Shown here: in pieces, positions 38,483-50,910 of the stretch
How the letters are laid out: each line of letters opens with the position of its first letter
Numbering within the stretch: the first letter of the stretch is position 1
Source of the DNA: Tannerella sp.
GTDB taxonomy: Bacteria; Bacteroidota; Bacteroidia; Bacteroidales; Tannerellaceae
Direction: 5' to 3'
DNA length: 64,000 nt
NCBI GenBank assembly: GCA_031285565.1
Contig: JAITVY010000105.1
Coordinates: 1 to 64,000 of the forward strand
Notes under the pieces: generated by a model
Database searches by the model: none
What the model was told of the DNA's origin: nothing
Seen by the model: only the letters and a program-made list of their open reading frames with translations
Position numbers and translations under genes: made by a program

Positions 38483-39175
38483 TTATAAGACTATTTGTCT
38501 AAGTTGCGATAATTCCAGCAATTGTACTTTTTTTCCATCAACATGTATAAGGCCTTCTTTAATCATTTTATTAATTTCTTTTGACAGTGCGGGGCGGGTA
38601 ACGCATAGATAATCCGCCAATTGAGAATGGTTGTGCTCAATAGTAACCCAATCCTTTTCCGGTCGTTTTTTTTCAAGTAAGTAAACAATAAAACGGTTGC
38701 GAATGCTTTTTTGCGTTAATGCCCGCAGGCGTGTAACTGTACATTTGTTACAATTACCGGTTACGCATAAAAAGTTTTTCAGCAGGTTGGGCTCTTCGCT
38801 GATCAATTTGAATAATGAGTCTTTGGTTGCTTTCAGTAAGGTCCCTTTAATAGTCACAGTAAAAGTAGCCGGAAGTGTGTTGTCTTTGCTGAAAAGATGT
38901 GGAGTCGCAAATGCACGGGGGGCAATAATATCTTCAATCATTACATTATTACCCCATCCATCGATAATATCTACCCGGAGTTGTCCTTCCAATAAAATAT
39001 ATAGTGATTTGCAAGGAGTATCCTGCCTGGCTATAATCTCATTTTTGGCAATGTCGTAGATCTGAAAATCAAGCCTGTCTAAGATACTTGTTTTAATGTT
39101 GTCGGGTAAACCCTCGAATAACGGTATCTGAAATAAGATTTTTTGATGTTTTTCCGTCAAACAAACTGCTTCCAT
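38483..39175 (-). CDS. Crp/Fnr-family regulator, probably HcpR-like
   Basis: A 230-residue regulator read from MEAVCLTEKHQKILFQIPLF (39175); the promoter's position just upstream argues against the longer frame from 39193. Residues ~15-125 form the cyclic-nucleotide-binding fold (EIIARQDTPCKSLYILLEGQ). Cysteines lie in FLCVTGNCNKCTVTRL (near 140), before the dimer helix. The C-terminal HTH is HSQLADYLCVTRPALSKEIN (near 185). Crp/Fnr relatives called HcpR control nitrosative-stress and nitrite genes in Bacteroidota. The neighbouring porin and nrf genes carry a shared palindrome, so this protein is the likely activator. Confidence 0.88.
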   Translation of the reverse strand: MEAVCLTEKHQKILFQIPLFEGLPDNIKTSILDRLDFQIYDIAKNEIIARQDTPCKSLYILLEGQLRVDIIDGWGNNVMIEDIIAPRAFATPHLFSKDNTLPATFTVTIKGTLLKATKDSLFKLISEEPNLLKNFLCVTGNCNKCTVTRLRALTQKSIRNRFIVYLLEKKRPEKDWVTIEHNHSQLADYLCVTRPALSKEINKMIKEGLIHVDGKKVQLLELSQLRQIVL

Positions 39176-39310: not shown

Positions 39311-39418
39311 TAAATCAGTAGTCAAGTAGTCACAGAAGTCATCAATCGCATTGCTCCTTAAAAGTCAAGTAGATTATTATTTCTATCTGGAAATTACAAG
39401 CTAAAATATTTTGCGAAG

Positions 39419-39436
39419 CGTAATTTAGATTACACT
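39419..39436 (+). promoter_or_regulatory. Crp/Fnr-type palindrome, porin promoter
   Basis: GCGTAAT-TTAG-ATTACAC, with matching half-sites GTAAT/ATTAC. Its centre (39427.5) lies 36.5 bases before the last base of a TTTG (39461-39464), the same distance as at nrfH. No -33 box is present. This fits an activator site near -41 to -43. Confidence 0.7.
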
Positions 39437-39490
39437 TTTTAATATTGAATTTTATTTTTTTTGCATATAACAAATTTAAATAAACGGCAT

Positions 39491-40774
39491 ATGAGAATTA
39501 AACTACTACCTATTTATACATTTTTTATAGCAAGCTGTTTTGCTTTGCAAGGGCAAAATGCTGATAACGAAACATCTATTTCTGTACAGATACGTCCACG
39601 TGCCGAATACCGTAACGGAGCAATATTTCCGCGTTATGAAGGTGAAGAAGCTGCCGGGTTTGTTAATAACCGGGCTCGTTTATCGCTGGATTATAGCAGG
39701 GATAAGCTTAGTATGAAAGTTTCGGGTCAACATGTAGGTGTGTGGGGACAAGATCCACAGGTTGATAAAAACGGTCGTTTTATGTTGAATGAGGCCTGGG
39801 CGAAACTGTATTTGACGCCTTCCTTTTTTGCGCAATTGGGACGTCAAAGTTTGATATATGACGATGAGCGGATTTTAGGAGGACTGGACTGGAATACATC
39901 GGGGCGTTTTCATGATGTATTAAAAGTCGGCTTTGAGAATAAACAAAATAAGTTGCATTTGATTTTAGCTTTTAATCAGAATGACGAGAAGGTTAATGGA
40001 GGTACATATTATGCTCCCGGCGGACAACCTTATAAACTGATGCAGACCTTATGGTATAATTACGCAAAATCTGATTTCTCTCTTTCTACTCTTTTTATGA
40101 ATCTGGGACAAGAGGGTGGTGATGCCGAGACTCAGACGGCTGATACGCGTTATTTACAGACATTTGGCACACATATCAATTATACTCCTGCAGCATGGAA
40201 ATTTCAGGGAACATTTTACTATCAAACAGGGAAAACGGTTGCAGACGTGAGTGTTTCAGCTTGGATGGCTGCATTGAAAGCTTCTTACCAGATTAACCAT
40301 CAATGGTCTGCTGGAATCGGAAGCGATTTTTTGAGCGGAGATAAGAATAGTGATAGTAAGTATAAGGCTTTTAATCCGTTGTATGGAACGCATCATAAGT
40401 TTTACGGATCAATGGATTATTTTTATGCTTCTTCTTTTATTAATGGTGTAAATCCCGGTTTATTGGATTTGTATGGAAATGTTGCATTTACTCCTTCTAA
40501 ATCACTTAACTTATCGCTTACTTATCATAATTTTAGTATAGCAAAGAAGGTTGAAGATAATTCGGGTAAGGAATTAAAAAAAGGGTTGGGATCGGAAATG
40601 GATTTTCAGTTGGATTGGACTATTATGAAAGATGTAAAGCTTTCGGGAGGTTATTCTGTTATGTTTGGAACAAAAACAATGGATTTTGTGAAAGGCGGGG
40701 ACCATAATAGCTGGCAGGACTGGGGATGGGTTTCATTGAATATAAGCCCCCGGGTGTTTTATGCGAAATGGTAA
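39491..40774 (+). CDS. Outer-membrane porin-like protein, alginate-export family type
   Basis: A 427-residue protein read from MRIKLLPIYTFFIASCFALQ (39491), which gives a normal signal peptide; ten residues upstream in frame lack one. The mature part is a large beta barrel with alternating strands: SVQIRPRAEYRNGAIFPRYE, NNRARLSLDYSRDKLSMKVS, FAQLGRQSLIYDDERILGGL, WFNYAK-like and INYTPAAWKFQGTFYYQTGK, ending in VSLNISPRVFYAKW. It fits the alginate-export/DUF1302-like barrels often found beside NrfHA in Bacteroidales and may let nitrite or another small anion through. Its promoter shares the palindrome with nrfH. Confidence 0.85.
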   Translation: MRIKLLPIYTFFIASCFALQGQNADNETSISVQIRPRAEYRNGAIFPRYEGEEAAGFVNNRARLSLDYSRDKLSMKVSGQHVGVWGQDPQVDKNGRFMLNEAWAKLYLTPSFFAQLGRQSLIYDDERILGGLDWNTSGRFHDVLKVGFENKQNKLHLILAFNQNDEKVNGGTYYAPGGQPYKLMQTLWYNYAKSDFSLSTLFMNLGQEGGDAETQTADTRYLQTFGTHINYTPAAWKFQGTFYYQTGKTVADVSVSAWMAALKASYQINHQWSAGIGSDFLSGDKNSDSKYKAFNPLYGTHHKFYGSMDYFYASSFINGVNPGLLDLYGNVAFTPSKSLNLSLTYHNFSIAKKVEDNSGKELKKGLGSEMDFQLDWTIMKDVKLSGGYSVMFGTKTMDFVKGGDHNSWQDWGWVSLNISPRVFYAKW

Positions 40775-40826
40775 ATCAATTGACAATTGACAATTTAATC
40801 ACTAATTAGTTGCATAAAAAATAAAT

Positions 40827-40844
40827 GTGTAATAATTATTACAC
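40827..40844 (+). promoter_or_regulatory. Crp/Fnr-type palindrome, nrf promoter
   Basis: GTGTAATAATTATTACAC is a perfect 18-bp palindrome. Its centre (40835.5) is 36.5 bases before the end of the -7 box TATTTTTG (40865-40872). There is no -33 element, so an activator is probably needed. Confidence 0.75.
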
Positions 40845-40864
40845 TTATTGATTAATAAAATGAG

Positions 40865-40872
40865 TATTTTTG
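40865..40872 (+). promoter_or_regulatory. -7 box of the nrfHA operon
   Basis: TATTTTTG fits TAnnTTTG. The predicted start (about 40879) lies before the hairpin at 40896-40927. Confidence 0.6.
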
Positions 40873-40895
40873 TTTCAGGAGATTTAAACAGTTTA

Positions 40896-40927
40896 TTAGG
40901 GGTTGTTCAAATTTAAACAACCCCTAA
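40896..40927 (+). promoter_or_regulatory. Perfect hairpin in the nrfH leader
   Basis: TTAGGGGTTGTT and AACAACCCCTAA pair over 12 bases with an 8-base loop. The hairpin ends 14 nt before the nrfH ATG (40942), so it may affect stability or translation. It has no T tract and is not a typical terminator. Confidence 0.6.
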
Positions 40928-40941
40928 GTATAGGGCATACC

Positions 40942-41529
40942 ATGAAGAAATTTTTAGAATATATACCCAGTCAATTTATTCTGCCTTTATTTATTATCGG
41001 GGGATTAGCAGTAGGTTTGGGTGGTTATACGGTTTTTATGTCGAGGGCACATTCTTATCTTTCGGATGAACCTGCGGCATGTGTAAACTGTCATATAATG
41101 GCGCCTTATTACCAATCGTGGAATCATAGCTCGCATGCACAATGGGCCACCTGTAATGATTGTCATGTACCGCAGGATAATGTAGCGGAAAAGTATGCAT
41201 TTAAAGCGATGGATGGTTTGTATCATGCTGCTGTTTTCACAGTTAAAGGCGAACCGGACGTCATACGTCCCCGTGATGCCAGTAATACGGTTGTTATGAA
41301 TAATTGTATTCGTTGCCATACACAGCTAAATACGGAATTTGTTAAGACAGGGATGATTACATATGCAGATGTGCAGGAGGATAAAGGCAAAGCTTGTTGG
41401 GATTGTCACACCAATGTTCCGCATACGAAAATAAGTAATTTGTCGTCTTCCCCGAATGCGATTGTACCATTGCCGGAATCACCGGTTCCTGACTGGCTGA
41501 AGGAGATGATGAGATCTCAAAAGCCCTGA
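40942..41529 (+). CDS. nrfH: Cytochrome c nitrite reductase, small subunit
   Basis: Membrane-anchored tetraheme cytochrome that takes electrons from menaquinol and passes them to NrfA. Read from MKKFLEYIPSQFILPLFI (40942), the first ATG after the leader hairpin, giving 195 residues. An N-terminal anchor (PLFIIGGLAVGLGGYTVFM) is followed by four heme motifs: CVNCHIM (near 47, with the axial Met of heme 1), CNDCH (near 71), CIRCH (near 118) and CWDCH (near 152). nrfA follows 184 bases later. The stop codon lies within a hairpin. Confidence 0.96.
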   Translation: MKKFLEYIPSQFILPLFIIGGLAVGLGGYTVFMSRAHSYLSDEPAACVNCHIMAPYYQSWNHSSHAQWATCNDCHVPQDNVAEKYAFKAMDGLYHAAVFTVKGEPDVIRPRDASNTVVMNNCIRCHTQLNTEFVKTGMITYADVQEDKGKACWDCHTNVPHTKISNLSSSPNAIVPLPESPVPDWLKEMMRSQKP

Positions 41530-41539
41530 AGGGGCTTTT
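41519..41539 (+). terminator. Hairpin spanning the nrfH stop codon
   Basis: AAAAGCCC-TGAAG-GGGCTTTT, an 8-bp stem with the TGA stop in the loop. It may weaken transcription or protect the 3' end, since nrfA must be transcribed past it. It also resembles the CCCCTAAAGGGG repeats at 8755 and 8801. Confidence 0.4.
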
Positions 41540-41613
41540 CAATTGACAATTGAGAGTTGACAATTGACAATGGGAGGAAATCGTCATGTCGAACTATGTG
41601 AGACATCTCATCT
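41535..41613. repeat. TTGACAATTGACAA-type repeat and a dispersed-repeat remnant
   Basis: The nrfH-nrfA gap holds CAATTGACAATTGAGAGTTG followed by ACAATTGACAATGG, then GTCATGTCGAACTATGTGAG with ACATCTC, a string resembling dispersed repeats of many Bacteroidota. The same TTGACAATTGACAA motif stands after the porin stop (40778-40794). The rest of the gap to 41713 is AT-rich, without a gene. Confidence 0.6.
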
Positions 41614-41713
41614 AAACAGTTAAAAAGGAGAAGTTAAGAGTTGAAATGTAAGAGAAAATTAAGGTGACTGATTACTGATAGCTAATAAGAAATAATAAAT
41701 AAAAATATCGGAT

Positions 41714-43213
41714 ATGTTTAAGAAATTAACTGAGGCAATTAAGCGTAAACCTATCATTGGATGGGGGATATTTTTGGTTGTGATGGCAGGTGTATTCGTT
41801 CTGGGTTTACTTGCCGCATCTATTACAGAGCGCAGAGCTGAAATAGCAACCTTGTACAATAACAAGAAAGTGGATATAAGCGGTATTGAGTCAAAAAATG
41901 AGATCTGGGGTGAGAATTATCCACGTGAGTATAATACCTGGAAGAATACTCAAAATATGGATTTCAAAAGCAAGCATCTTGGGAATATGCCTGAAGATGT
42001 ATTGGAACATCGTCCGGAAATGGTTATTCTCTGGGCGGGATATGCTTTTTCGCGTGATTACTCTGCCCCGCGAGGACATATGCATGCCATTGAAGATATG
42101 CGTGTGACATTAAGAACCGGTACTCCTGATGAACATACAGCCGATATGCAACCGGCTACGTGCTGGACATGTAAAAGTCCGGATGTCCCCCGGATGATGC
42201 ACGAAATGGGGATTGCTAATTTTTATAAAGATAAATGGAGCGCAATGGGTAGTGAAATCGTGAATCCGATCGGATGTGCCGATTGTCATGATCCCCAGAC
42301 CATGAATCTCACGATTACACGTCCGGCTTTAATTGAGGCTTTTGAGAATAGAGGGAAAGATATAACTGAGGCTACTCCTCAGGAAATGCGTTCGTTGGTT
42401 TGTGCACAGTGCCATGTGGAATATTATTTCAAGGGTGAAGAGAAATACCTGACATTTCCCTGGCACGATGGTATGACGGTAGAAGATATGGAGAGGTATT
42501 ATGATGAGGTTGAATTCACTGACTGGACACATGCACTTAGTAAGGCTCCTATGCTGAAAGCGCAACATCCGGATTATGAATTATTCCTTCTCGGGCCACA
42601 TGCGCAACGTGGATTGTCATGTGCCGATTGCCATATGCCATATATGTCGGAAGGCGGAATTAAATATTCCAATCATCAGGTTATGAGTCCGTTGAAAAAT
42701 ATCTCTTCAACATGTCAAACGTGCCATCGCGACAGTGAGGATAATTTGCGTAATTATGTATACCAATATCAGGATAAAGCGTTGGAAATCCGGGATCGCA
42801 TTGAAAAAGAACTTTCTAAAGCGCATATAATGGCGAAAACAGCCTGGGATAAAGGTGCAGCAGAAAATGAAATGCAGGCTTCCCTGAAATTACTCCGTCA
42901 GGCTCAGTGGCGGTGGGATTTTGCAGTTGCTTCGCACGGAGGTTCTTTCCATGCTCCGGTGGAAACACAACGGATCCTTGCACATAGTCTGGATCGTACC
43001 ATGCAGGCACAGCTCGAGCTTCAAAAAGTATTATTTGCTTATGGGGTGACGGATTTGGATATGCCCGATATTTCAACGAAGGACAAGGCTCAGATGTATA
43101 TCGGTTTGGATATGAATACACTTAAAAATAATAAAGATCAATGGAATAAGACTGTAATTCCGAAATGGGTCGAAGAGGCAAAAAGAAAAGATAGGTTAGC
43201 AAGTTTAAAATGA
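41714..43213 (+). CDS. nrfA: Cytochrome c nitrite reductase (ammonia-forming), catalytic subunit
   Basis: Pentaheme enzyme that reduces nitrite to ammonium with six electrons on the outer face of the inner membrane. 499 residues, with an N-terminal membrane anchor or signal (WGIFLVVMAGVFVLGLLAAS, 17-36). The active-site heme motif CWTCK (150-154) has the diagnostic lysine. Four further motifs follow: CADCH (near 190), CAQCH (near 232), CADCH (near 301) and CQTCH (near 337). The calcium-site region and GLSCADCHMPYMSEGGIKYS are normal. It overlaps the resB start by four bases and depends on NrfH for electrons. Confidence 0.98.
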   Translation: MFKKLTEAIKRKPIIGWGIFLVVMAGVFVLGLLAASITERRAEIATLYNNKKVDISGIESKNEIWGENYPREYNTWKNTQNMDFKSKHLGNMPEDVLEHRPEMVILWAGYAFSRDYSAPRGHMHAIEDMRVTLRTGTPDEHTADMQPATCWTCKSPDVPRMMHEMGIANFYKDKWSAMGSEIVNPIGCADCHDPQTMNLTITRPALIEAFENRGKDITEATPQEMRSLVCAQCHVEYYFKGEEKYLTFPWHDGMTVEDMERYYDEVEFTDWTHALSKAPMLKAQHPDYELFLLGPHAQRGLSCADCHMPYMSEGGIKYSNHQVMSPLKNISSTCQTCHRDSEDNLRNYVYQYQDKALEIRDRIEKELSKAHIMAKTAWDKGAAENEMQASLKLLRQAQWRWDFAVASHGGSFHAPVETQRILAHSLDRTMQAQLELQKVLFAYGVTDLDMPDISTKDKAQMYIGLDMNTLKNNKDQWNKTVIPKWVEEAKRKDRLASLK

Positions 43214-44475
43214 AGCAGTCGACTCGTGAGATGTGGCAATATCCCTGGCGCTATAAAGAAAGCATTGCTTTTGTGTCAGGGATTATTTTTGTAGGGATTG
43301 TTTTGCAGTTTGCAACAGGTTCATTTGATTTTAGTATCATACAGTCTCCTGTAAATATAATACTTGGAGTATGTATGATAGTTTTACTTTCTTTATTTTT
43401 CCTGCTTCGTAATCATCCTTTTTATAAATGGTTTTCGGGAGTCCCATTCTCTGTAACTTTAATTGCCACTTTGCTGATATTAGGAGTGGTTATGGGTCTT
43501 ACCCCTCAAAAAGCAGGGCATGTGCATGGTGAACGAACGTTTTTTTCATTACTGGGATTTGACCGGATGACATCATCCTGGCCGTTTGTACTCATTTATT
43601 TTTTCATATTATTATCGCTAGGAGCATTGATTCTTCGTCGTTTAATACCTTTTCGGAAAAAGGATTATGCGTTTTATTTGAATCATATCGGTTTATGGAT
43701 TTTATTATTCGCAGCCGGGTTAGGATCTTCGGATATAAGAAGATATGTAATGCATATTCGTGAAGGAGAAACGGAATGGCGTGTATACAGTGAGCAAAAA
43801 GATGTATTGGAGTTGCCTATTGCTATCGAGCTGAATGATTTTTATATGGAAGAATATCCTCCGAAGCTTGCCATTATTAACCGTAATACCGGTCAGGTGC
43901 AACCTGAAGAGACACCTGACTATTTCCAGATAGATACGGAACGGCCGGAAGGTGAATTGGCCGGGTGGGAAGTGCGGCTGGAAACATATATTCATGAAGC
44001 GATCCGGAACAGTGACAGCACTTATCATGAAGTTCATATGCCCGGAGCATCGCCGGCAGCTTATGTTTATGCACAAAATAAAGCTACAGGAGAATCTACT
44101 GCGGGATGGATTTGTGGAGGAAATATTTCGCAGCTTTATATGGTGTTAAATCTGGATTCTACGTATTGTGTGGTTATGACGCAACCGGAACCTAAGCGGT
44201 TTGTTTCGGATATCCACATTATGACAGAGAACAGGCAGGAGGCACATGCGCTTCTTGAAGTGAATAAACCCTACCGGATGGGTAACTGGATGCTATATCA
44301 GTACGGATATGATAATGAGGCAGGTAAATTGTCAACATATAGTAGTATTGAACTCGTGTATGATCCCTGGGTGACCCCGGTATATATCGGTATATGTATG
44401 TTGGCTGCCGGATCCGTTTGTATGTTATGGAGTGGCAACAGAAGGAGAGAAGGAGTGAATAATGACGTGGGATGA
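43210..44475 (+). CDS. resB: Cytochrome c biogenesis protein, ResB/Ccs1 type
   Basis: A 421-residue membrane protein of the system II cytochrome c assembly machinery. It has about four transmembrane segments (SIAFVSGIIFVGIVLQFATG, NIILGVCMIVLLSLFFLLRN, SVTLIATLLILGVVMGL, and one near 405: WVTPVYIGICMLAAGSVCML) and a large periplasmic domain between the third and last. Together with the CcsA protein encoded next it delivers heme to apocytochromes, here NrfH and NrfA. The start overlaps nrfA (ATGA), typical of translational coupling. Confidence 0.88.
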   Translation: MKQSTREMWQYPWRYKESIAFVSGIIFVGIVLQFATGSFDFSIIQSPVNIILGVCMIVLLSLFFLLRNHPFYKWFSGVPFSVTLIATLLILGVVMGLTPQKAGHVHGERTFFSLLGFDRMTSSWPFVLIYFFILLSLGALILRRLIPFRKKDYAFYLNHIGLWILLFAAGLGSSDIRRYVMHIREGETEWRVYSEQKDVLELPIAIELNDFYMEEYPPKLAIINRNTGQVQPEETPDYFQIDTERPEGELAGWEVRLETYIHEAIRNSDSTYHEVHMPGASPAAYVYAQNKATGESTAGWICGGNISQLYMVLNLDSTYCVVMTQPEPKRFVSDIHIMTENRQEAHALLEVNKPYRMGNWMLYQYGYDNEAGKLSTYSSIELVYDPWVTPVYIGICMLAAGSVCMLWSGNRRREGVNNDVG

Positions 44476-45238
44476 TTTTTTATGGTTTGCAATTCCGGCC
44501 ATTATTTGCTGGCTGACTGCAGGTATTACGATTTATGCCTTTAAACGTAAGATCGGCGAATGGCTGATGCTATGCGGTATTTTGATTTTTGCAGCTTTTA
44601 TTGTGGGGCTATGGATTGGACAGGAACGTCCGCCGATGCGAACTATTGGTGAAACACGTTTGTGGTATTCATTTTTTCTTTCGATTGTCGGGTTTATAAC
44701 TTATAAACATTGGAAATATAAATGGTTGCTGTCATTTTCAGGTCTGATGGCTATTGTTTTTACCTGTATAAATATTTTTAAGCCGGAAATTCATTCCAAA
44801 CATTTGATGCCTGCTTTACAGAGTTATTGGTTTGTACCTCATGTTACGGTTTATATTCTTTCGTATGCAATGCTGGCGGCAGCAACCATTGCATCTTTTA
44901 TCCAGCTTCGTAAATTAGGCAGAGGAAGCTCTGACAGTCAGCTTTACCAGTTAATGGATAACCTTGTATATGTGGGATTCGGCTTTTTAATGTTAGGCAT
45001 GCTGATGGGTTGTATTTGGGCTAAAGAAGCTTGGGGACATTACTGGTCGTGGGACCCGAAAGAAACATGGGCTTTTGTGACAGCGGCAGCTTATCTGGTC
45101 TATATCCATTTACGTTTGCGATCATCTCATCCACGGTTTACGTTGTGGATGCTTCCCGTATCATTTGTTTTGTTGTTAATCACATGGATTGGGGTTAATT
45201 ATTTGCCTGCGGCGCAGGGGAGTATACATGTGTATTAA
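44462..45238 (+). CDS. ccsA: Cytochrome c biogenesis protein CcsA
   Basis: Heme handling and ligation protein of system II, 258 residues, with about eight transmembrane segments. The tryptophan-rich heme-binding motif is clear in WAKEAWGHYWSWDPKETWAF (near 188), with flanking His residues in PHVTVYILSYAMLAA and GVNYLPAAQGSIHVY. It overlaps resB by 14 bases and closes the nrfH-nrfA-resB-ccsA operon, which is thus self-sufficient for making its own cytochromes. Confidence 0.93.
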   Translation: MTWDDFLWFAIPAIICWLTAGITIYAFKRKIGEWLMLCGILIFAAFIVGLWIGQERPPMRTIGETRLWYSFFLSIVGFITYKHWKYKWLLSFSGLMAIVFTCINIFKPEIHSKHLMPALQSYWFVPHVTVYILSYAMLAAATIASFIQLRKLGRGSSDSQLYQLMDNLVYVGFGFLMLGMLMGCIWAKEAWGHYWSWDPKETWAFVTAAAYLVYIHLRLRSSHPRFTLWMLPVSFVLLLITWIGVNYLPAAQGSIHVY

Positions 45239-45290
45239 TTGTTAATGATTAATGGTTAGTTATTAATGAGTAATTAATTCAATTACTAGG
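45239..45290. repeat. TTAATGATTAATGGTTAG-type string
   Basis: TTAATGATTAATGGTTAGTT follows the ccsA stop; the mirror string ATTAACCATTAATCATTAAT stands before leuB (5337-5358). This is one of the recurring intergenic motifs of the window. Confidence 0.5.
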
Positions 45291-45341
45291 ATGGTGCAAC
45301 AATTTAACGGATATGGTTGTTAAACAATAAAATGCTTCGCT

Positions 45342-45701
45342 ATGACGAAAATCCAGATAAAACGCGTATATGATCCCGATAGCAAGGCCGATGGCTTTCG
45401 TGTGCTGGTGGATAAACTGTGGCCAAGAGGGGTAAAAAAGGAAAATCTGCATTACGATTACTGGGCAAAAGAAATCGCACCATCAACAGCTTTGCGTCAA
45501 TGGTTTCATCAGGATCAGGGAAAGCATTGGACTGAATTTCGTGAGAAATATATTCATGAGTTGAATGAAAGTCCGGATGCCGGACATTTTTTAGACGAGA
45601 TTAAAAGAAAGGAAATAGTAACCTTATTGTATGCTTCTAAGAATGGAAAAGAAAATCACGCACTCGTCTTACAGGAGTATTTGACAAAGCATTTAAAATA
45701 A
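45342..45701 (+). CDS. DUF488-family protein
   Basis: A 119-residue soluble protein matching the compact DUF488 (YeaO-like) family: IQIKRVYDPDSKADGFRVLV (4-23), DKLWPRGVKKENLHYDYWAK (24-43), APSTALRQWFHQDQGKHWTE, FREKYIHEL and VTLLYASKNGKENHALVLQE. The function of the family is not established. The gene stands alone after the nrf operon and upstream of the PepSY protein gene. Confidence 0.9.
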   Translation: MTKIQIKRVYDPDSKADGFRVLVDKLWPRGVKKENLHYDYWAKEIAPSTALRQWFHQDQGKHWTEFREKYIHELNESPDAGHFLDEIKRKEIVTLLYASKNGKENHALVLQEYLTKHLK

Positions 45702-45726
45702 ATGTAGGCTCGTAAATTAATTTTAC

Positions 45727-45744
45727 ATGTAATTATAATTACAT
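45727..45744 (+). promoter_or_regulatory. Crp/Fnr-type palindrome, PepSY gene promoter
   Basis: ATGTAATTATAATTACAT is a perfect 18-bp palindrome of the same GTAAT-N4-ATTAC type as at the porin and nrf promoters. Its centre is 37.5 bases before the end of TATCTTTG (45766-45773), one base more than in the other two. Confidence 0.7.
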
Positions 45745-45765
45745 ATTTAAAAGCGGATAATCATT

Positions 45766-45773
45766 TATCTTTG
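45766..45773 (+). promoter_or_regulatory. -7 box of the PepSY gene
   Basis: TATCTTTG, a perfect -7 box, 49 nt before the ATG at 45823. No -33 TTTG at the right spacing. Confidence 0.6.
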
Positions 45774-47474: not shown

Positions 47475-47543
47475 TCAGGCACGATTATTAACATTACATA
47501 TTGAAAAACTAAATACCATAAAGTGAGAGAATCTGTTACTACT

Positions 47544-48128
47544 ATGCAAGAAATAGATGCCAATAGCACCCGGATAGACTTTTGTCTTCAAAGGATCTCA
47601 AAATACGGGTGTTCCGATTCTTTCAGAGAATTGTATAATCATTATTACAACCGACTTTTCCGTCAGGCATTATACTATTTGAATAATAATCCGGATTATG
47701 CACAGGAGGTTGTTTCAGACGTTTTTATTGCCTTGTGGCAGGGACGTGCGGTATTGTCGGAAGTAAAAAGTCCTGATGATTATCTTTTTATCGCATTGAA
47801 GCATGCAGCAGCACGATATATTGAGAAAAATTATAAGCATCGCAGGGAATTATTGACTGAAAACTTACCGGATATACAGTCTGATGATCTATTGGGAGAC
47901 TTAAACCTGATTGACCGGGAATTGAGAGATAAATACAGAGAGGCTTTAAATCTTTTACCACCCCGGTGTGCAGAAGTGTTTCGCCTGGTCAGGGAAGAAC
48001 GGAAGAAATATTCGGAGGTAGCCGAATTGTTAGGGATATCTGTTAAAACCGTAGATAACCAGATGAATAAAGCTGTTAAGATGTTGTATGCCCAACTAAA
48101 AGAAAATCTTTTTTTTATTTTTTTCTAA
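47544..48128 (+). CDS. RNA polymerase sigma factor, ECF type
   Basis: A 194-residue ECF sigma factor read from the ATG at 47544 (MQEIDANSTRIDF); a GTG seven codons upstream is possible but less likely. Region 2 shows FRELYNHYYNRLFRQALYYL and DYAQEVVSDVFIALWQGRAV (near 52-71). Region 4 shows LPPRCAEVFRLVREERKKYS and EVAELLGISVKTVDNQMNKA (near 160). It is of the Bacteroidota type that pairs with FecR-like anti-sigma factors and TonB receptors. Unusually, no intact fecR follows directly; the nearest is 3.9 kb downstream, after a TonB receptor/DUF4249 pair. Confidence 0.93.
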   Translation: MQEIDANSTRIDFCLQRISKYGCSDSFRELYNHYYNRLFRQALYYLNNNPDYAQEVVSDVFIALWQGRAVLSEVKSPDDYLFIALKHAAARYIEKNYKHRRELLTENLPDIQSDDLLGDLNLIDRELRDKYREALNLLPPRCAEVFRLVREERKKYSEVAELLGISVKTVDNQMNKAVKMLYAQLKENLFFIFF

Positions 48129-48279
48129 AAACGGATAGGGAGTTTTATTGTTTTCTGTCTCTTTATTATCAGAATAGCCGATTCAAGGATTTTTGAAATA
48201 TAAAGCAGGATGTATATCTAAAACAGAAACAGTTTTTTTAATTGAATAATAAATAGAGCGCCAAAACTAAATCTGATTT
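48129..48279 (+). pseudogene. Linker with a fecR remnant between sigma factor and first TonB receptor
   Basis: 48133-48185 resembles the sequence ahead of the intact fecR (51957-52012: GGATAGGGA, CTCTTTATT, AGAACAGCCGAT). At 48193-48232, TTGAAATATAAA matches the first codons (M)KYK of fecR with ATG changed to TTG, and CTAAAACAGAAA matches a stretch a few codons on. 48242-48282 (GCGCCAAAACTAAATCT) matches the sequence between fecR and the second receptor gene. The first fecR copy thus seems deleted but for its edges. Confidence 0.65.
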
Positions 48280-50910
48280 ATGATAAAAAAACTGATTCTG
48301 GCCTTGATTATGCTATTGCTGGTGTGTTATGGTTATTCTCAGGAGTATCCAACTGTAACATTAGAGATGAGGAATGTAAAGCTGATTGCTGTTCTGAAAC
48401 AATTAGAACGGCAGTCAGCTTATTCTTTTGTTTATAATGAGACAGTGAATCTGAATCAGGAAAAAAGTGTTTCTATTCAAAATCTGCAACTTTTGGATGC
48501 GCTAGAAATTATATTTCAGGAAACTGATATTACATGGAAAATAGATAAGAAATATATTATTCTTTTTCCTCAAAAACCGGAGGCATCCATAAAGAAAGTG
48601 ACTATTTCGGGTTATATTACGGATTCCGAATCGTCGGAAGTTTTAATTGGAGCCAATGTCTATGATTGGATAAGTGGTTCCGGTACTGCAACCAATGAGT
48701 TTGGTTTTTATAGCTTAACGCTTCCGGCGGGTGAAATAGATCTGCAGTTCTCGTATACAGGGTATGAACCGGAGAAAAAAAAGATAGATTTGCAGGAAAA
48801 TGAAAGAATAAATATCCGGTTGGCCACTCATATGATGCTGGATGAAGTTGTCATATTAGGAGATAGGGCAGAGACCGGTATTTCTGCAACTCAAATGGGC
48901 GCATTGGATGTGCCGTTGGATATATTAAAAAATACACCTTCATTATTGGGGGAGGCGGACGTTATGAAGACTATTCAGATGCTGCCGGGAGTTCAGTCGG
49001 GAACGGAAGGAGGTGCTGGTGTTTATGTGCGGGGTGGTGGACCGGAAGAGAATCTGGTTTTGTTGGATGGAATACCTTTATATAATGTAGATCATGTGTT
49101 TGGTTTTTTTTCAGTGTTCACGCCGGAAGCTGTAAAAAAAGTAAGTCTATTTAAAAGTAGTTTTCCAGCACGTTTTGGTGGCCGGTTGTCTTCGGTTATT
49201 GATGTACGGACTAATGATGGCGACATGCATCATTATCATGGCGCTGCTGGGATTGGATTATTATCAGCTAAATTTCAACTGGAGGGTCCGATCCGTAAAG
49301 GGCGTACTTCATTTAATATTTCAGGGCGACGTTCTTACCTGGATTTGATGTCTAAACCACTTTTTGGGAAGGGAGATGATTTTGGTTATTTCTTTTATGA
49401 CTTAAATGCTAAATTGAATCATAAATTCAATGATAAAAGCCGTTTGTTTCTTAGTTTTTATAATGGGAAAGATAAGTTTCATTCTAAATTCAGTGAGAGT
49501 GACGGCATATTTAAGTCGAAAGATGAGGCTACTTTAAATTGGGGTAATAAATTGCTTGCCGTCAGGTGGAACTATATATTTTCGCCTAAGCTTTTTAGTA
49601 ATACAACGGTAGCTTTTACTGAATATCGTTTTGGTATAAAAACGGAATGGCTAAATTATAATTCAGAAAAAGGTCTGGATTATAAACTGAATTCACAATA
49701 TCGTTCGGGCATTAAAGACTGGGCATATAAAATTGATTTTGATTATTATCCCTTACCTAAACATCATGTGAAATTTGGTACAAACTATTTGTATCATGAT
49801 TTTAAACCGGAGGTTGAGTCCTCAAGAATACGCGATAATGAAAAAGGGCATATGAAAGATACTATTTATACGCATTTATCAGATTCGCATATTTATGCTC
49901 ATGAGGTTTCAATATATGCAGAGGATAATTTTGATGTCACATCCCGTTTAAGTGTGAATGCCGGCATCCATTTTTCCCTGTTTCGTGTTAAAAATACAAC
50001 ATATACATCTGCGCAGCCCCGTTTATCGGCACGTTACCAATTAACTGATGATATAGCTTTAAAGGCTTCATATACAAAGATGAATCAATATATCCATTTA
50101 CTGTCAAGCTATACGATAACAATGCCTACTGATTTATGGGTTCCGGTAACAGAACGCATCAAACCTATGCGATCGCACCAATATTCCATTGGCGGATATT
50201 ACACCGGTATACAAGGATGGGAGTTTTCTACAGAGGTTTATTATAAGAATATGCGGAATGTACTGGAGTATAAAGATGGGGCTACATTTTTAGGTTCATC
50301 TTATAATTGGGAAGAAAAAGTAGAAATGGGACGAGGGCGTGCATACGGAATTGAATTAATGGCTCAGAAAACAATTGGAAAAACAACCGGTTGGCTTGCT
50401 TATACATTGGCAAAAAGTGAACGTAGGTTTGGCAAAAATGGGATCAATCAGGGTGAATGGTTTCCATACCGTTATGACCGGCGACATCTTATTAATCTGA
50501 TGGTGAATCATACTTTTTCGGATCGGATTGATGTAGGCGCTTCCTGGGAATTTTATACAGGAGGAGCTACCACATTAGGGGAAGAAACTACGCTTATTAT
50601 TAGTCCTACAGATGCACCCGGATTTGGTTATTACTACGGATATTGGGGACAATATAACGGGCCGGTATTTGAGGGAGTTGATTATGTTGATAAGCGGAAT
50701 AATTACCGGATGCCGCCGAGTCACCGGCTGAACATCGGAATAAACTTCCGAAAAAAGAAAAAGCATGGAGAAAGAATCTGGAACTTTAGTATTTATAATA
50801 TTTATAATGCCATGAATCCGACTTTTATTAATCGTGTTAATGATACAAGCGTAAGAAAAATAACCATTTTTCCGATTATTCCCTCATTTACGTATACCTA
50901 TAAATTCTGA
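48280..50910 (+). CDS. TonB-dependent outer-membrane receptor with STN domain, copy 1
   Basis: An 876-residue transporter. After a signal peptide (LILALIMLLLVCYGYSQ) comes the secretin/TonB short N-terminal signalling domain (YPTVTLEMRNVKLIAVLKQL, 24-43, to ~105), a carboxypeptidase-like repeat (VTISGYITDSESSEVLIGAN, ~108-190), the plug (MLPGVQSGTEGGAGVYVRGG, LLDGIPLYNVDHVFGFFSVF, ~235-280) and a 22-strand barrel ending ITIFPIIPSFTYTYKF. The STN domain implies signalling to a FecR/sigma pair. The cargo is unknown. It is closely similar to copy 2 at 53253 and forms a pair with the DUF4249 gene four bases downstream. Confidence 0.92.
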   Translation: MIKKLILALIMLLLVCYGYSQEYPTVTLEMRNVKLIAVLKQLERQSAYSFVYNETVNLNQEKSVSIQNLQLLDALEIIFQETDITWKIDKKYIILFPQKPEASIKKVTISGYITDSESSEVLIGANVYDWISGSGTATNEFGFYSLTLPAGEIDLQFSYTGYEPEKKKIDLQENERINIRLATHMMLDEVVILGDRAETGISATQMGALDVPLDILKNTPSLLGEADVMKTIQMLPGVQSGTEGGAGVYVRGGGPEENLVLLDGIPLYNVDHVFGFFSVFTPEAVKKVSLFKSSFPARFGGRLSSVIDVRTNDGDMHHYHGAAGIGLLSAKFQLEGPIRKGRTSFNISGRRSYLDLMSKPLFGKGDDFGYFFYDLNAKLNHKFNDKSRLFLSFYNGKDKFHSKFSESDGIFKSKDEATLNWGNKLLAVRWNYIFSPKLFSNTTVAFTEYRFGIKTEWLNYNSEKGLDYKLNSQYRSGIKDWAYKIDFDYYPLPKHHVKFGTNYLYHDFKPEVESSRIRDNEKGHMKDTIYTHLSDSHIYAHEVSIYAEDNFDVTSRLSVNAGIHFSLFRVKNTTYTSAQPRLSARYQLTDDIALKASYTKMNQYIHLLSSYTITMPTDLWVPVTERIKPMRSHQYSIGGYYTGIQGWEFSTEVYYKNMRNVLEYKDGATFLGSSYNWEEKVEMGRGRAYGIELMAQKTIGKTTGWLAYTLAKSERRFGKNGINQGEWFPYRYDRRHLINLMVNHTFSDRIDVGASWEFYTGGATTLGEETTLIISPTDAPGFGYYYGYWGQYNGPVFEGVDYVDKRNNYRMPPSHRLNIGINFRKKKKHGERIWNFSIYNIYNAMNPTFINRVNDTSVRKITIFPIIPSFTYTYKF

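Follow-up and report, generated by a model that had tools for sequence, protein, structure and literature searches.

The 64,000-nucleotide stretch of Tannerella sp. analyzed here (contig JAITVY010000105.1, positions 1 to 64,000, hereafter the window) harbors a gene at 38483-39175 for a Crp/Fnr-family protein, called CrpA in this study, beside genes for an outer-membrane porin, the nitrite reductase NrfHA, the cytochrome c assembly proteins CcsBA and a PepSY membrane protein. Judged from sequence, CrpA is very likely a class II Crp/Fnr-type activator of the porin gene, of nrfHA-ccsBA and probably of the PepSY gene, acting via the palindrome TGTAAT-N4-ATTACA. A CrpA dimer would bind this palindrome, centered near -41.5 (a position estimated by counting from the -7 element), and would recruit RNA polymerase to promoters that possess a -7 element without a usable -33 element. 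Its targets would be the porin gene and the nrfHA-ccsBA operon, probably joined in this genome by the PepSY gene; by switching these on it would promote the respiration of nitrite to ammonia. The original prediction had joined all of these genes in one Crp/Fnr circuit. For the porin and nrfHA-ccsBA this is supported by conservation of site and spacing, by co-occurrence of the site with CrpA and by a concordant shift of a recognition residue and the site, whereas the PepSY part is represented by a perfect site in a single genome.

Three exact copies of GTAAT-N4-ATTAC were found in the window (GTAATTTAGATTAC at 39420-39433, GTAATAATTATTAC at 40829-40842 and GTAATTATAATTAC at 45729-45742), and these are its only matches without a mismatch. 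The second and third belong to perfect 18-bp palindromes (40827-40844 and 45727-45744). The symmetric 18-mer of the first site spans 39418-39435 around a center at 39426.5; one of its outer pairs is mismatched, and its middle is not palindromic. The TTTG motifs of the -7 elements end at 39463 (porin), 40872 (nrfH) and 45773 (PepSY), so that 36.5, 36.5 and 37.5 bases separate each TTTG end from the center of its palindrome. These three distances agree with those first noted, as do the positions of the second and third palindromes; the first had been placed one base too far downstream (39419-39436). The adjacent gene at 38483-39175, originally named as a Crp/Fnr gene, encodes a protein that matches PF00027 and PF13545 above the gathering score. 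The -7 element of Bacteroidetes promoters has the consensus TAnnTTTG, and a -33 TTG stands 17-23 bases upstream of the position of the -7 TA. The full -7 consensus is present in TATTTTTG (nrfH) and TATCTTTG (PepSY). As had been predicted, the -33 box is lacking: in none of the three promoters does a TTG occur at 17-23 bases, the nearest one upstream of the -7 TA position lying at 8 bases (porin) or 14 bases (nrfH), with none in 60 bases for PepSY. Relative to the -7 element, from which the distances were taken, all three promoters have a geometry that would fit class II activation. In class II promoters of Escherichia coli CRP the palindrome is centered near -41.5 in place of the upstream promoter element. 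The predicted CrpA promoters share this replacement, but combine it with a TAnnTTTG -7 element and a TGTAAT motif instead of TGTGA.

Orthologues of CrpA were collected from one genome per species in 84,980 species. The scan yielded 54 loci, 45 of which encode proteins at least 47% identical to CrpA (the lowest, L188, at about 47-48%). These 45 loci comprise 800 kb, and 29 of them show a readable head of an nrf operon. All 29 heads carry a site with at least 10 of the 12 consensus letters, in the TGTAAT or the TGTCAT form, near a TTTG-like -7 element. Both forms and one mismatch in TTTG were allowed, which favors the finding of sites; starts of internal operon genes were scored alike, and none of 23 reached the site score (maximum 9 of 12 letters). 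The spacing is 36.5 bases in 26 of the 29 heads, 37.5 in L151 and 35.5 in L186 and L188. The heads include near-copies (L177/L178; L181, L182, L183 and L191), and the site of L170 was counted as present, as was that of genome G358, of like operon layout, in the family comparison below. Records that stem from the same genome (G034/L151; G055 with L159/L172) were not counted twice. The porin genes divergent from crpA show the same picture, since all six that were seen (the window, L072, L073/L151, L077, L152 and L155) carry the site at 36.5 or 37.5 bases. A search of all 45 loci for the exact GTAAT palindrome combined with a TTTG at 35.5-38.5 bases gave 24 matches in 23 places, whereas the 29 other orderings of the half-site letters gave at most two matches each and four altogether. 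A scan of 295 genomes of the order located the 16-letter site with TTTG at 23 places in 20 genomes, against four matches of the reversed control.

The site also follows the presence of CrpA. Among 99 genomes of the family to which the window belongs, 24 encode an NrfH above the cut-off and 17 a close CrpA (more than 255 bits), 16 of them encoding both. A GTAAT site at the nrf head was found in all 16 NrfH genomes with CrpA, but in only one of the eight without it (Fisher P 2e-5). Thirteen of the 16 have the exact site with TTTG, G034 has one mismatch, and G352 and G353 have an exact palindrome at 36.5 bases but TTTA in the -7 element. In G358, whose nrf operon begins with a porin gene, the site precedes that gene and lies 1.1 kb upstream. 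The eight genomes without a close CrpA comprise G354 with a GTAAT site, G356, G395 and G396 with GTAAC at 36.5 bases, and G013, G014, G373 and G397 with neither. G352, G353 and G354, which belong to one genus, encode a Crp-like sister protein, about 33-35% identical to CrpA, divergently from nrfH (L224, L225, L226). The sister possesses the helix TRPALAK (pattern RPAL-x-K), retains Cys55, Cys142 and Cys145, and has Phe93 and Met70. Its nrfH promoters carry an exact TGTAAT palindrome at 36.5 bases and a -7 element ending in TTTA. As helix pattern and site are shared, the motif follows the helix in the sister lineage too.

In CrpA (230 amino acids) the recognition helix reads TRPALSKE, and R194, P195 and K199 align with R180, E181 and R185 of CRP in a numbering made by hand. 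A recognition role has been described for CRP positions 180, 181 and 185 (PMC1274295). The 45 orthologues all come from records of Bacteroidales, including Bacteroides (with B. fragilis), Phocaeicola, Parabacteroides, Dysgonomonas, Butyricimonas and Tannerella, among others; near orthologues among a set of 61 genomes are those of G030, G033, G034 and G055. Cys55, His93 and a Cys142-x-x-Cys145 pair are invariant in all 38 rows of the CrpA alignment. In a 46-row alignment that includes partial rows, Cys142 is kept in 45 of 45, Cys145 in 44 of 45, and R194 and P195 in all 44 rows with letters. His93 is not universal, as the nar-linked CrpA proteins of G352 and G353 contain a tyrosine. Cys142-x-x-Cys145 together with the recognition helix R-P-[AG]-L is proposed to mark the CrpA clade, and both are present in the protein of the window. 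Cys55 and His93 were rejected as marks of CrpA alone, Cys55 being found also in two HcpR-like proteins and His93 being replaced in the two CrpA proteins just mentioned. A structure model built from the 38 alignment rows (predicted local distance difference test score 87), which replaced a model from four rows (77), positions residues 142 and 145 in the long dimerization helix (129-153), residue 55 beside a beta strand (57-71) and residue 93 in a short helix (91-94). Together with Cys55, and with His93 in those aligned members that are linked to nrf, the conserved pair Cys142-x-x-Cys145 could make up a metal center or a thiol switch, and nitrite, nitric oxide, redox state or iron may be what it reads.

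A change in the recognition helix coincides with a change in the site. Residue 199 is lysine or asparagine for 21 heads, all of which have GTAAT-type sites without any TGTCAT half. It is threonine or serine for seven heads, and each of these has at least one TGTCAT half, two of them (L189 and L190) in both halves; L193, with a broken frame, was left out of the counts. On the tree, residue and site each change once and on the same branch, in one clade, and are thus concordant. A further match of helix and motif occurs in G051, where an HcpR-like gene encoding a protein 33% identical to CrpA shows the helix TRPALTKN and a TGTAAT site precedes hcp. Lysine 199 as the sole determinant of TGTAAT was ruled out, because asparagine accompanies this motif too.

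The palindrome by itself is not rare. With up to two mismatches the window contains 55 copies, where 57.5 are expected, and degenerate copies therefore carry no meaning. The assembly (5.0 Mb, 83% complete) harbors exact copies at 24 places, compared with 18 for a reversed control pattern. Stop-free frames of 200 or more codons enclose 21 of these; the remaining three are the sites of the window, and in no other copy does a TTTG end at a distance of 30 or 31 bases from the 14-mer. If the 6.3-kb stretch with the three sites had the density of those 21 copies, it should contain 0.026 of them (Poisson P ~3e-6). The original prediction had named equal frequency in coding regions as a sign against it. 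The bare motif does behave in this way; copies outside long frames with class II spacing do not, and a genome-wide scan for them returns the window's three only. When the site was combined with TAnnTTTG in five genomes (G000, G030, G033, G034 and G055), every match with no or one mismatch lay in nrf/crpA loci, the PepSY site included. The 18-letter class II pattern with up to three mismatches gave 71 matches in these genomes against 57 for the control, and 76 against 69 in a second scan. A wider regulon was also sought among the two-mismatch candidates of this genome, and the five inspected (L104, L112, L128, L132 and L136) all lie inside long open frames. As degenerate matches stay near the controls, no wider regulon is claimed, and the CrpA regulon looks small and local, its sites with at most one mismatch being confined to nrf/crpA loci in the five genomes.

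A number of observations weigh against CrpA as the activator of these genes. In 16 of the 45 orthologue loci no nrf head is in reach. In L157-L159 and L228-L229 crpA adjoins narG, which encodes nitrate reductase, and L157-L159 and L228 have a good left half-site only. In G352 and G353 the sister protein, with its similar helix, is a second Crp-like protein that adjoins nrfH, and the site there may be bound by this protein instead of CrpA. A scan of the 99 family genomes for the 14-letter site with TTTG gave 48 places, against 12 matches of the reversed control, and some of the 48 are not linked to nrf. Twenty-six were assigned, namely 13 nrf heads, six porin genes divergent from crpA (G220 and G351 being included through coordinates that they share with L155 and L152), the PepSY gene, a site on the opposite strand in G358, an nrf remnant in G402 and four sites at or before a response-regulator-like gene. 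The -7-like element of the porin, TTTTTTTG, lacks the TA. The shift of residue 199 and site is a single event on the tree, with several of the threonine/serine loci being near-copies, and its concordance is unreplicated for this reason; a test by independent contrasts found one independent pair only and no significance. The class II position could in principle serve repression too. Finally, upstream DNA could be read for 12 other PepSY homologues, and all 12 lack a site like that of the window (L214, a locus without upstream DNA, was excluded).

The last of these points bears on the alternative that survives best, according to which CrpA and its sites are real but the PepSY promoter stands outside the functional circuit or is controlled otherwise. 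Besides the missing sites, the genomes of two close relatives, G033 and G034, showed no PepSY homologue at E 1e-60. This is opposed by the promoter itself, where a perfect palindrome stands 37.5 bases from a perfect TATCTTTG in this genome, and by the surroundings of the homologues, since one directly precedes nrfH in G060 (L089/L215), one follows ccsA with a single small gene between in L156 and one lies beside frdX in G041. These neighborhoods fit a role in nitrogen-oxide respiration. On balance the PepSY gene probably belongs to the CrpA circuit, the separate control of its promoter being the less likely possibility, though one of some weight.

HcpR, a regulator that responds to nitric oxide and is encoded elsewhere in this genome beside frdX-hcp (L080), is improbable as the protein that binds the palindromes. 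HcpR (HcpR2 branch, with BT0688 and the P. gingivalis protein) resembles CrpA in its Crp/Fnr fold, its occurrence in Bacteroidales, its response to nitrogen oxides, a putative one for CrpA, and its N4-spaced palindrome, which in many cases has GTAAC and which, in the loci read, stands upstream of frdX or hcp with a spacing like that of class II. The HcpR2-type motif GTAACnnnnGTTAC, of the GTAAC form (PMC1274295), resembles the window sites, and according to PMC13370916 deletion of hcpR in B. thetaiotaomicron abolishes transcription of hcp and lowers that of nrfA only modestly. An hcp gene is in reach of crpA in ten of the 45 loci (next to it in L154), always together with an HcpR-like gene, and the GTAAC palindromes before nrfH of G356, G395 and G396 (L235, L232 and L234) look as if HcpR had taken over nrf. 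However, the helix of this genome's own HcpR is different (SRQSIERE), and its frdX-hcp genes are preceded by another near-palindrome, TGTCGCAATTGTGACA (TGTCGC-N4-GTGACA, L080 5839-5854), 37.5 bases from the end of TACCTTTG. The distribution of the GTAAT form at nrf heads follows CrpA although G396 and G397 have an HcpR gene beside frdX-hcp. GTAACnnnnGTTAC is not the motif at the nrf heads of the orthologue loci, which show GTAAT-type sites or TGTCAT halves, and the exact GTAAC class II sites in the 45 loci precede frdX or an HcpR-like gene. The proteins differ as well: three HcpR-like proteins compared are 26-33% identical to CrpA, and HcpR sits with hcp and in most cases uses GTAAC or another motif, whereas CrpA of the window adjoins porin and nrf. 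Cys142 and Cys145 are absent from all five HcpR-like proteins and kept in CrpA and its sister; Cys55 is present in two of the five, and position 93 is phenylalanine in the sisters and the HcpR-like proteins. The heme ligand of P. gingivalis HcpR is Met68 (PMC12750200). It aligns with residue 70, as counted on a HMMER alignment to 9day, which is isoleucine in CrpA of the window, isoleucine, leucine or serine in the other aligned CrpA rows and methionine in the HcpR of this genome. By these comparisons CrpA differs from HcpR.

That the palindromes are operators of a repressor is likewise unlikely. Their position alone leaves the sign of regulation unfixed; yet they take the place of the -33 region in all three promoters, and an exact spacing of 36.5 bases in 26 of 29 heads is as expected for contact with RNA polymerase. 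Chance AT-rich inverted repeats near promoters, the reading that the near-background counts of the bare motif would favor, can practically be dismissed, because class II spacing outside long frames is confined to the three copies and both the conservation across families and the letter-permutation control contradict it.

Features of the crpA-nrf-PepSY region of the window, with predicted CrpA sites
Feature	Position	Strand	Basis
crpA, Crp/Fnr-family regulator, 230 aa	38483..39175	-	Pfam cNMP_binding and HTH_Crp_2 above cut-off; orthologues, alignments
CrpA site 1 (predicted) CGTAATTTAGATTACA, porin promoter, center 39426.5	39419..39434	+	sequence; conserved at divergent porins
Porin -7-like element TTTTTTTG, without TA	39456..39463	+	sequence
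Outer-membrane porin, alginate-export family	39491..40774	+	Pfam PF13372
CrpA site 2 (predicted) TGTAATAATTATTACA, nrfHA promoter, center 40835.5	40828..40843	+	sequence; conserved at nrf heads
nrfHA -7 element TATTTTTG	40865..40872	+	sequence
nrfH, nitrite reductase small subunit	40942..41529	+	TIGR03153 above cut-off
nrfA	41714..43213	+	NF008339 above cut-off, PF02335
ccsB/resB-like cytochrome c assembly protein	43210..44475	+	PF05140
ccsA-like cytochrome c assembly protein	44462..45238	+	PF01578
DUF488 protein, between ccsA and PepSY gene; also after ccsA in L073	45342..45701	+	PF22752
CrpA site 3 (predicted) TGTAATTATAATTACA, PepSY promoter, center 45735.5	45728..45743	+	no mismatch to site + TAnnTTTG
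PepSY -7 element TATCTTTG	45766..45773	+	sequence
PepSY_TM membrane protein, 500 aa	45823..47325	+	PF03929

Repeated runs resembling TTGACAATT occur at 40777-40800, 3' of the porin gene, and at 41540-41575, between nrfH and nrfA. Directly 3' of the PepSY gene (47523-50910) lie a gene for an extracytoplasmic function sigma factor and a large open reading frame that resembles a TonB-dependent receptor, a label given by eye. In other genomes, L157, L158 and L159 share a crpA-narK-narG island in which narG is 99-100% identical between Parabacteroides and Dysgonomonas records, which suggests that the island was recently moved by horizontal transfer. Ahead of the nar cluster these three loci carry an asymmetric site, TGTAATTAAGAACACC, at 36.5 bases from TTTG, and L228 has TGTAATAAAGAACACA at 37.5 bases. 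In four genomes of one genus of the family, all without NrfH and a close CrpA (L219-L222), a class II-spaced TGTAAT site is kept; it is followed by a response-regulator-like gene in L220-L222 (labeled by eye) and by a broken form of it in L219, and is possibly a leftover nrf promoter. In L223 (2165-2520) the site precedes a broken remnant of nrfH-nrfA.

Among known regulators, FNR recognizes TTGAT half-sites and carries an N-terminal cysteine cluster for an iron-sulfur (Fe-S) center. CrpA differs in both respects, having neither the TTGAT motif nor such a cluster, with Cys5 as the only cysteine in its first 50 residues. The activation of nrf by a member of the Crp/Fnr family, predicted here for CrpA, is known for FNR, and FNR and Crp activate nrf operons in Proteobacteria (PMC12285233). 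Closer at hand is B. thetaiotaomicron, in which BT1414-BT1418 (porin, ccsA, ccsB, nrfA and nrfH) were predicted, in one sentence of PMC10434189, to be controlled by the Crp-like BT1413. The gene order is that of L161-L163 (crp followed by porin-ccsA-ccsB-nrfA-nrfH in opposite orientation), and owing to this synteny BT1413 is probably an orthologue of CrpA, although BT1413 itself was absent from the results of the orthologue scan. The existence of the regulator has therefore already been predicted in print in one line, to which the motif and promoter geometry are added here. The motif, geometry, breadth and cysteine signature of CrpA did not turn up in the literature searches, which covered the motif string poorly. 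CrpA adds a new, widely distributed member to a type of regulator that is already known.

Gut Bacteroidales respire anaerobically by reducing nitrite to ammonia. The modest effect of HcpR on nrfA in B. thetaiotaomicron, as given in PMC13370916, calls for additional nrfA factors. CrpA is a candidate for which a predicted site, its spacing and a specificity residue can be named, and the question of the nrfA regulator thereby becomes directly testable in laboratory strains. Expression of BT1414-BT1418 drops 30-36-fold in iron limitation (PMC10434189), and iron limitation ablates the nitrite induction of hcp but not of nrfA (PMC13370916); the latter speaks against a simple requirement of an iron cofactor for nrf activation. 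As a tentative and rather doubtful proposal, CrpA might represent a Bacteroidales-wide subfamily for nitrite and in some members nitrate respiration, in which Cys142-x-x-Cys145, from the first half of the dimerization helix, and the beta-roll residues Cys55 and, in most members, His93 would form a putative, previously undescribed metal or Fe-S sensing site unlike those of FNR and HcpR. It might then be the nrfA activator that is still missing for gut Bacteroides, and might couple this respiration to the iron status of the cell. A new sensor chemistry may lie behind the conserved Cys-x-x-Cys.

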